Assembly (NCBI GenBank): GCA_902727865.1
Contig: CACVAQ010000177.1
Coordinates: 1-32,740, forward strand
Length of the DNA stretch: 32,740 bases
Direction: 5' to 3'
Origin: an uncultured Aureispira sp.
GTDB taxonomy: Bacteria > Bacteroidota > Bacteroidia > Chitinophagales > Saprospiraceae
Notes under the pieces: model-generated
What the model saw: the letters and a program-made list of their open reading frames with translations, nothing else
Databases searched by the model: none
Told to the model about the DNA's origin: nothing
Part shown: positions 143 to 2,889 of the stretch, one piece after another
How the letters are laid out: every line of letters starts with the position of its first letter
Numbering within the stretch: the first letter of the stretch is position 1
Made by a program: the position numbers and the translations under genes

Positions 143-286
143 GTAGACTTAAGCCGCTTAAATAAGCTTTAAGTCATATTTTTTTTAGTTCAACAAAACA
201 TCTAGTTAACAAAAGTAAGTGAATTATATTGATAATTCCTAACATCAGAATAAATATTGCTTAAATTTACACATAATTTTTATTCT

Positions 287-967
287 ATGCAAAACAAGAA
301 TTTTATACAATTTAGCAATGTATCAATTAGCCGAAATAAAATATTAATATTAAAAGACATTAATATTTCGATTCGAAAAGGCGATTTTATATACTTGCTC
401 GGTAATACTGGCAGTGGAAAGAGTGCCTTGCTTCAGGCAATCTTTGCCCAACAATCTATTCAACAAGGAAACCTAGTAGTAGATGACATTTTAGTACACC
501 AAATTGAGCACAATACGCGCCCTTACTTAAGGCGAAAAATTGGCCTTGTCAGCGATTCTTTTCCATTGAATAATCATCTATCGGTCGGTCAAAACCTTGA
601 ATTTGTCTTAAATGCAACGGACTGGTCTGATACAGCGAATAAGAATGCAAGGATTCGTCAAGTCTTAGAAGTCCTAAACATTTCTAGCTTAGAGCATCAA
701 CCAATAGCTCGATTAACTAAAAAGGAGTATGTTCAGGTGCTCATCGCTCGAGCATTACTCAACGCCCCCGCTATCTTATTGTTAGATGCACCTGTACAGT
801 ACTTAGATATACAAGCCGCACAAGAGGTTTTACAATTCCTCTATCAATATGCTCAAAAAAATGCAACAACGGTACTTTTGGCAACGGTAAATAATAAAAT
901 CCCTCAATTTATACCTGGCGATCAAGTCTTTTTCTGCCAAGACCATACGGTTAAGGCAATCGACTAA
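287..967 (+). CDS. ftsE: FtsE-like ABC transporter ATP-binding protein with degenerate catalytic motifs
   Basis: Walker A GNTGSGKS, PYLRRKIGLV and IARALLN are FtsE-like. ATG at 287 is preferred over the TTG at 257. Confidence 0.75.
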   Translation: MQNKNFIQFSNVSISRNKILILKDINISIRKGDFIYLLGNTGSGKSALLQAIFAQQSIQQGNLVVDDILVHQIEHNTRPYLRRKIGLVSDSFPLNNHLSVGQNLEFVLNATDWSDTANKNARIRQVLEVLNISSLEHQPIARLTKKEYVQVLIARALLNAPAILLLDAPVQYLDIQAAQEVLQFLYQYAQKNATTVLLATVNNKIPQFIPGDQVFFCQDHTVKAID

Positions 968-1063: not shown

Positions 1064-1453
1064 TTATTTTTTATATTGACTCCATGCCGTGTAGCCTCCG
1101 TCCAAATCATAGATCGCTTTAAAACCTAATTCTTTGCAGATCGTACTTGCTTTTCCACTGCGACGCCCACTAGCACAAAAAATAAAAAGCGGTTGCTCTA
1201 CGTCTAATTTAGACATTTCGTCTTTGAAGTTTTCGCCAAAAAAATCAATATTTACAGCAGCTCCAATCGTTCCTGTGGCAACCTCCTCTGCCGTTCGAAT
1301 GTCAATTAACTGAACAGGACTTGTTCCTTGAGTTTTTTGATCAAAGTCTTTACAAGACAATAATTCCACTCCTTCTACTGGAGTAGCACTACCACAGGCA
1401 ATTAATAAGGTTAAAGACAATAAGCTTACGGCAAATAAATTCAATAATTTCAT
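1064..1453 (-). CDS. Rhodanese-like domain lipoprotein
   Basis: Signal peptide with lipobox LLIACG; VQLIDIRTAEE and active-site loop FCASGRRSGKA. Confidence 0.85.
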   Translation of the reverse strand: MKLLNLFAVSLLSLTLLIACGSATPVEGVELLSCKDFDQKTQGTSPVQLIDIRTAEEVATGTIGAAVNIDFFGENFKDEMSKLDVEQPLFIFCASGRRSGKASTICKELGFKAIYDLDGGYTAWSQYKK

Positions 1454-1568: not shown

Positions 1569-2003
1569 ATGGAAAAAGTGATTGCTTTAGGTTGTGACCA
1601 TGCAGGCTTTGATTATAAAGAAGCTGTAAGCAACTTATTAAAAGAACGTGGATACACGATCAATGACAAGGGAACCAACTCGCTAGATTCTGTTGACTAT
1701 CCTGATTTTGTACACCCTGTTGCCAACGATATTGAGGCGGGTAAAGCGGTTTATGGAATTGTGATGTGTGGTAGTGGCAACGGTGTTGCCATAACGGTTA
1801 ACAAACACGCTGGAATCCGTGCGGCGCTTTGTTGGAACATAGAATTAGCTACTTTAGCTCGTCAACACAATAATGCGAATGTCTTGGCTATTCCTGTTCG
1901 TTTTGTAAGCGAAGCCTTGGCTTTGGATATGATTCGGGCCTTTTTGGATACGGACTTTGAAGGAGGTCGCCATCAGCGCAGAGTGGACAAAATTGCTCTT
2001 TAA
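1569..2003 (+). CDS. rpiB: Ribose-5-phosphate isomerase B
   Basis: GCDHAGFDYKE, DYPDFVHPVA, MCGSGNG and NNANVLAIPVR motifs of the RpiB/LacA family. Confidence 0.92.
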   Translation: MEKVIALGCDHAGFDYKEAVSNLLKERGYTINDKGTNSLDSVDYPDFVHPVANDIEAGKAVYGIVMCGSGNGVAITVNKHAGIRAALCWNIELATLARQHNNANVLAIPVRFVSEALALDMIRAFLDTDFEGGRHQRRVDKIAL

Positions 2004-2118: not shown

Positions 2119-2889
2119 ATGAAGACATTAAGCATCCAATCTAAAGACAATTATATTGTTGTACAATTAGACCGAGGCAAAGCCAATGCCCTAAATCAGG
2201 AAATGGTTACGGAGTTGCGGCAGGTAATTCGTGCAACAGAAGCCGATGACAGTATTGGTGGAATCGTTTTAACAGGCAAAGCGCATTTTTTCAGTGGTGG
2301 GGTCGATTTATTAGAAGTCTATTATTACGACTCAGAAGGTATTCGCAATTTTTGGGGGTCGTTCTTGCAACTCGCTGCCGAAATGTTAGCCTTTAGCAAA
2401 CCTTTAGTCGCTTCCATTACGGGACATAGCCCTGCTGGCGGATGTATTTTAGCTTGTGCTTGTGATTATCGTGTGATGGCGGAAGGTGATAAGTATCAAA
2501 TTGGGCTCAATGAAATGGCCGTTGGAATTTCTCCTAGGGCAAGTATTCTACATCTTTATGCCTTTTGGATTGGGGAACACAAAGCCTATCAATATCTATT
2601 AGAAGGTTATTTGATGAAGGGCAAAGAAGCCTTGGAAATTGGATTGGTTGATGCCCTAGTTCCTTTGGATCAAACATTATTACAGGCAGAACAAAAAATA
2701 CAACAGTATTTAAAATTGCCGACAACCGCTTTCCGCCAAACTAAGAAATCGCTTAAATCGGGCTTGATACACGCTATGACAGCGAACTTTGAAACAGACT
2801 TGGAGTTGTTGCATCAACAGTTAATGTCGGAAGAGAGTCGTACAATTATGGGGCAAGTGGTTCAGTTTTTGGAATCTCGAAAAAAGTAA
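2119..2889 (+). CDS. Enoyl-CoA hydratase/isomerase family protein
   Basis: Crotonase fold: FFSGGVDL, GHSPAGGCILACACDYRVM, GLNEMAVG; similar to 3,2-trans-enoyl-CoA isomerase. Confidence 0.88.
   Translation: MKTLSIQSKDNYIVVQLDRGKANALNQEMVTELRQVIRATEADDSIGGIVLTGKAHFFSGGVDLLEVYYYDSEGIRNFWGSFLQLAAEMLAFSKPLVASITGHSPAGGCILACACDYRVMAEGDKYQIGLNEMAVGISPRASILHLYAFWIGEHKAYQYLLEGYLMKGKEALEIGLVDALVPLDQTLLQAEQKIQQYLKLPTTAFRQTKKSLKSGLIHAMTANFETDLELLHQQLMSEESRTIMGQVVQFLESRKK

Follow-up and report, generated by a model that had tools for sequence, protein, structure and literature searches.

A conserved FtsE with dismantled catalytic motifs in Aureispira, predicted to be unable to hydrolyse ATP

The FtsEX division complex is held to depend critically on ATP hydrolysis by FtsE, and the purpose of this hydrolysis is debated (PMC7343993). 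In both Streptococcus pneumoniae and Escherichia coli the coupling helix of FtsX binds FtsE (PMC7468199, PMC11139282); the contacting residues are E213, I216, L219 and V220 in the pneumococcal protein (PMC7468199), with E. coli equivalents that include V257, I261, T264 and F267 (PMC11139282). E. coli FtsE(D162N)X, taken to bind ATP without hydrolysing it, still recruits EnvC and promotes cell separation once the FtsA block is suppressed (PMC7343993), and FtsX is stated to localise without FtsE (PMC11139282). Hydrolysis-dead E. coli FtsEX blocks septal peptidoglycan synthesis (PMC7343993). We found no description of a natural hydrolysis-dead FtsE, or of a natural FtsX without FtsE, in a literature search of partial coverage that took in few subscription journals. 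Degenerate sites do occur in heterodimeric ABC proteins such as CFTR (NBD1), where the catalytic Glu and the His are replaced and the P-loop is kept, and where a second, canonical site hydrolyses ATP. FtsE, in contrast, is a homodimer, and with no second FtsE found in the genus studied here both of its sites would be dead.

The gene in question lies near the start of a 32,740-nucleotide stretch of DNA (the window) from an uncultured Aureispira sp., a genus in which strain CCB-QB1 is described as filamentous (PMC8868019); the present lineage probably grows as filaments too. The genome that holds it (G000) is 92.6% complete in 556 contigs. Among 18,950 NCBIfam models, TIGR02673 (FtsE) ranked first for the encoded protein with an E-value of 1.5e-37; the score of 129 bits and that of an intact canonical relative (L051, 231.7 bits) both lie under the model cut-off of 264.85, which is non-discriminating here. 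An AlphaFold2 model, built from an input alignment with 45 Bacteroidota FtsE sequences, has a mean pLDDT of 94.5 and matches S. pneumoniae FtsE best in the PDB (6z4w, TM 0.90), with TM values of 0.85-0.90 across the canonical structures 6z4w, 8tzj, 8ymc and 8hd0. In the gene tree the degenerate FtsE clade (100/100) is separate from a 29-row clade of non-FtsE ABC ATPases (100/100). Gene order in the genus runs from a small secreted-protein gene through ftsE, rhodanese, rpiB and enoyl-CoA hydratase to a cysK/CBS gene; at the G001 locus only the upstream neighbour is conserved. Together, synteny and phylogeny identify the protein as the organism's true FtsE ortholog. The small secreted proteins (about 140 residues, KTLHQTFTLDAAEKVN...) form a family with 5-12 copies in each genus genome, and two of these adjoin ftsE (family loci L081:8624-9049, L081:7828-8250 and L140:109-534).

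Table 1. Features of the ftsE locus, in window coordinates
Feature	Position	Strand	Remarks
Conserved upstream block	260..286	+	Kept in four genus members, mostly in the sister genus
TAATTTTT, within the upstream block	274-281	+	Resembles the Bacteroidota -7 element
Degenerate ftsE, 226 aa	287..967	+	ORF translation, TIGR02673 top model, AlphaFold fold
A-loop position	329..331	+	Ser15 vs canonical Phe/Tyr
Walker A (P-loop) GNTGSGKS	401..424	+	Residues 39-46; intact
PYLRR, adjoining the Q-loop	521..535	+	Residues 79-83; invariant in 6/6 degenerate genus sequences
Q-loop VSDSF	548..562	+	Residues 88-92; vs VFQDF
ABC signature LTKKEYVQ	713..736	+	Residues 143-150; vs LSGGEQQR
Walker B and D-loop LLLDAPVQYLD	776..808	+	Residues 164-174; vs ILADEPTGNLD; Asp167 kept, Glu168 to Ala
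H-loop ATVN	881..892	+	Residues 199-202; vs ATHD
Rhodanese-like lipoprotein gene	1064..1453	-	Adjoins ftsE; synteny marker
rpiB-like gene	1569..2003	+	Synteny marker
Enoyl-CoA hydratase-like gene	2119..2889	+	Synteny marker

The original prediction described an intact Walker A motif in a protein that had lost the Q-loop Gln, the signature, the catalytic Glu and the H-loop His, and the translation and an alignment with 45 canonical Bacteroidota FtsE sequences bear this out (Table 1). That reference set defines 63 columns conserved at 95% or more, of which the protein keeps 42, including the P-loop GxTGSGKS, PxLRR, Walker B Asp167 and the D-loop LD, and loses 21. Fifteen of the 21 losses fall in the hydrolysis motifs: F89S, Q90D and D91S in the Q-loop, S144T, G145K, G146K, Q148Y and Q149V in the signature, A166L, E168A, T170V, G171Q, N172Y and P175I in Walker B and the D-loop, and H201V in the H-loop. 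Such a protein could in principle still hydrolyse ATP, slowly or through other residues. The protein retains its P-loop Lys and its Walker B Asp, and the FtsE of a sister genus (G107) retains the Walker B Glu without the Gln, signature or His, both of which would fit an altered cycle of this kind. Against it, this protein has lost four separate catalytic elements at once, and the genus sequences hold no conserved Glu or His at the lost catalytic positions that could act as a substitute, which makes continued hydrolysis quite improbable.

The further suggestion that nucleotide binding is kept proved weaker than claimed. Only the intact P-loop carries this claim, since the A-loop aromatic has gone as well, a loss that the original prediction did not mention; most genus members lack that aromatic, and the P-loop Ser is absent in one of them (G004). 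Loss of the A-loop aromatic and the signature may weaken nucleotide binding, and given the A-loop and P-loop Ser losses ATP binding itself may be fading too. With canonical FtsE the protein thus shares its fold, P-loop, Walker B Asp, PxLRR region, phylogenetic position and the presence of FtsX in the same genome, but it differs in lacking the Q-loop Gln, signature, catalytic Glu, switch His and A-loop aromatic. The family is known, its catalytic state new: by descent the protein is an FtsE, but filing it among FtsE ATPases would be wrong.

The motif losses are found in all seven genus genomes that carry ftsE, and the reading frame is intact in every one. Nearly identical replacements, LTKKEY(V/L)(Q/K), LL(L/V)DAPVQ(H/Y)LD and ATVNNKIPQ, occur in the orthologs of G006 (80% identity), G003 and G008 (both 73%) and G002 (65%), while the more distant G001 (42%) and G004 (38%) have lost the same motifs to different letters. 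Chance is a very poor account of such a recurrence. Alignment of close relatives thus shows the losses to be conserved, with the replacement letters kept in the four closest species. In a tree built from AtpD, enoyl-CoA hydratase and the cysK/CBS protein, G107 is the sister of the genus and G001 lies at its base, with a core clade of G000, G002, G003 and G006 and a second clade of G004, G005 and G007. Sequencing or assembly error is ruled out, since the losses recur in the near-complete G002 and G003 assemblies (2-3 contigs), and a pseudogene is ruled out for the core clade by the intact frames and a dN/dS of about 0.1.

It had also been proposed that the gene might be a paralog that has taken another role, which synteny and phylogeny do not support. 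No second canonical FtsE was found in the genus. The other TIGR02673 matches examined there, including higher-scoring ones, are MacB/LolD-type ABC ATPases in a separate clade that keep an intact LSGGQ, DEP and H-loop; this rules out both a paralog beside a canonical FtsE and a genome-wide decay of ABC motifs. When this FtsE is used as the query, G000 yields its next best matches at E-values of about 1e-18, against 1e-30 to 1e-43 for most canonical FtsEs of relatives. A second degenerate ABC ATPase, an exporter, lies near ftsE (L081:5942-7675 in G003; L140:1498-3225 in G000, contig C114). Its Walker A (GASASGKS) is intact, but it reads GDHVTEE at the Q-loop, LPQSVIKK in place of the signature, VVTEP in Walker B and AVSRS in the H-loop, and its neighbours are HlyD-like and TolC-like genes.

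Selection on the degenerate gene was estimated by the NG86 method. The dN/dS was 0.106 for G000-G006, 0.06 for G006-G003 and 0.07 for G006-G002, and lay between 0.04 and 0.11 in the core clade wherever computable, other pairs being at or near synonymous saturation. Across the four core species, 26 of 35 columns in the motif regions are invariant, compared with 106 of 197 elsewhere (Fisher p 0.018). The roughly 27 bp before the start codon are likewise conserved in the core species and mostly so in the sister genus; the block includes TAATTTTT, similar to TAnnTTTG, the consensus of the Bacteroidota -7 element, which the G107 counterpart, TAATTTTG, matches exactly. On the strength of the low dN/dS, the motif-column conservation and this upstream block, the dead motifs are judged to be maintained, without drift, in the core clade.

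Outside the core clade the picture differs. The G001 and G004 genes evolve faster (pN/pS 0.43-0.58), and in G005 and G007, which share a clade with the most eroded FtsE (G004), ftsE has been cleanly deleted: the syntenic site reads secreted-protein gene, about 200 bp, rhodanese, and a search with a canonical FtsE turned up none elsewhere in either genome. Fast change and deletion together fit a slow decay in part of the genus, and FtsEX could be decaying in the lineage, with FtsE having lost its function first and persisting with little or no role until it is deleted, as G005 and G007 would already show. We regard this as unlikely, as the low core-clade dN/dS, the seven intact frames, the conserved upstream block and replacement motifs that are more conserved than the remaining protein all argue against it.

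Comparison with the sister genus suggests an order for the losses. The G107 FtsE, whose gene adjoins the same upstream gene as in the genus, has lost the Gln (VSLDF), the signature (LSKLNYVR) and the His (ATNT) and keeps the Glu (LLVDEP). By parsimony, FtsE would have been dismantled stepwise, with the Glu lost last.

The check for a partner, raised together with that for a second ftsE, found FtsX in eight of the nine genus genomes, the ninth being 88% complete; in G000 it lies at G000:C212:3121-3999 (E-value 7.9e-127). All the sequence tests made, namely the genus-wide losses, the dN/dS of about 0.1 for the closest pair, the presence of FtsX and the failure to find a second FtsE, support the main reading of the protein as an FtsE predicted to lack ATP hydrolysis and retained by selection. 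Both ftsE-deleted genomes also retain ftsX, adjoining uppP. The coupling helix conforms to (M/L)(Q/H)x(V/S)GAT in the six readable genus members with a degenerate FtsE, reading MQMVGAT in G003 and G008, MQVVGAT in G000, MQLVGAT in G002, LQMVGAT in G001 and LHLSGAT in G004; the sister genus has MQLVGSN. In the two ftsE-deleted genomes the same stretch is wrecked (LKIAETS in G005, LQKKEVA in G007), and G007 has a Lys at the site where the pneumococcal V220K mutation disrupts function. The helix losses number two, both within one clade. Because the helix is kept with a dead FtsE and lost with the deletion, these data suggest continued docking of the dead FtsE on FtsX.

The least probable of the explanations we considered is that FtsE has left FtsX for another role needing only a folded NBD, for instance in binding FtsZ or FtsA or as a regulator outside division. 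Since ftsE and ftsX lie far apart in the genus genomes, their joint action is not required, and the conserved replacement motifs would fit a new surface. The behaviour of the FtsX helix in genomes with and without ftsE speaks against such a departure, as does the invariance of PxLRR and its neighbouring positions.

One further genus, g80 (G088, G182, G245 and G288; FtsX at L272-L275), has near-complete genomes and an intact-looking helix (LQIVGAN), and no FtsE was detected in the two members checked, G088 and G245. A strict rule by which FtsE loss leads to a broken FtsX helix is ruled out by this exception; the helix can persist for other reasons, because g80 keeps it without a detectable FtsE.

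A scan of 398 Saprospiraceae genomes with a profile of the degenerate FtsE returned only seven genus members above 340 bits, followed by G107 at 226 bits; the next one examined was canonical. Catalytic motifs are kept in the other FtsEs examined, about 60 from the family and order together with the 80 best relatives, on named contigs, among the matches listed by a species-wide contig scan, all of them canonical. Two further groups have a dismantled FtsE. In g92 (G100 and G192; L315 and L357) the motifs read VFE at the Q-loop, LSAGEQRR, LIADTP and STRD. In g106 all six species have a dead FtsE (L353, L355 and L381-L384), with IS(D/G)xY or VSPKY, LPSG(L/M)RQK or LSSGQIQK, LADNP or LADAP, and the H-loop His missing. 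Sequence identity is 67-77% in five of the species and drops to 46% in the sixth. G100, G192 and G203 all have FtsX. A single clade for all three dead-FtsE groups was rejected (AU p 0.015); g106 and the source genus were joined weakly (86/85) on long branches, and their gene neighbourhoods differ. Independent dismantling of FtsE has taken place in at least one and probably two further Saprospiraceae lineages (g92 and g106). Retention of a dead FtsE throughout g106 again argues against mere decay. Many genomes in g7, g18, g55, g58 and other Saprospiraceae genera lack FtsE, and most of those checked also lack FtsX, a repeated loss of the complex that would sit well with decay.

Our preferred explanation, which we consider reasonably probable, is that the protein is a conserved, hydrolysis-dead pseudo-ATPase still docked on FtsX as a fixed scaffold. 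It retains the NBD fold, the P-loop and the FtsX-facing side, and lacks the groups needed for ATP cycling: the Q-loop Gln, the signature Ser-Gly-Gly, the catalytic Glu and the switch His. Most likely it would sit under FtsX, perhaps with nucleotide bound and without turnover, holding FtsX in one state while peptidoglycan hydrolysis is timed from elsewhere, so that FtsEX would serve peptidoglycan hydrolases as a static adaptor and not as an ATP-timed switch. We infer all three elements, the absence of ATP hydrolysis, the binding to FtsX and the adaptor role, from sequence and models.

The E. coli D162N and E163Q laboratory mutants (PMC7343993, PMC11139282) are alike in being hydrolysis-dead and able to assemble with FtsX, as predicted here. 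The Aureispira FtsE differs from them in being natural, kept across species and stripped of several motifs at once; without the signature, moreover, its ATP sandwich dimer would be weaker, in contrast to the mutants, which are thought to be ATP-locked. A scaffold role is favoured because FtsE(D162N)X still promotes separation with the FtsA block suppressed and because FtsX is stated to be able to localise in the absence of FtsE. A point against it is that hydrolysis-dead FtsEX stops septal synthesis in E. coli, so that the divisome here must differ.

Natural lineages thus appear to keep FtsE after losing hydrolysis, and the selected motif loss suggests that FtsX may be served by an FtsE motor that no longer runs. 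Close relatives stand at each step, from canonical FtsE through the Glu-keeping G107 and the fully dismantled G000 to the deletion with FtsX retained in G005 and G007, and this series makes the purpose of hydrolysis testable by swapping natural variants. It also warns that not every FtsE match merits annotation as an ATPase. More tentatively, and with somewhat less than even confidence, we propose that the Saprospiraceae have repeatedly replaced the ATP-driven FtsEX switch by a complex that is static or consists of FtsX only, passing from a selected hydrolysis-dead scaffold, in which Gln, signature and His were lost before Glu, through gene deletion to decay of the FtsX helix. If this is true, these bacteria would time the hydrolysis of septal peptidoglycan without FtsE hydrolysing ATP.
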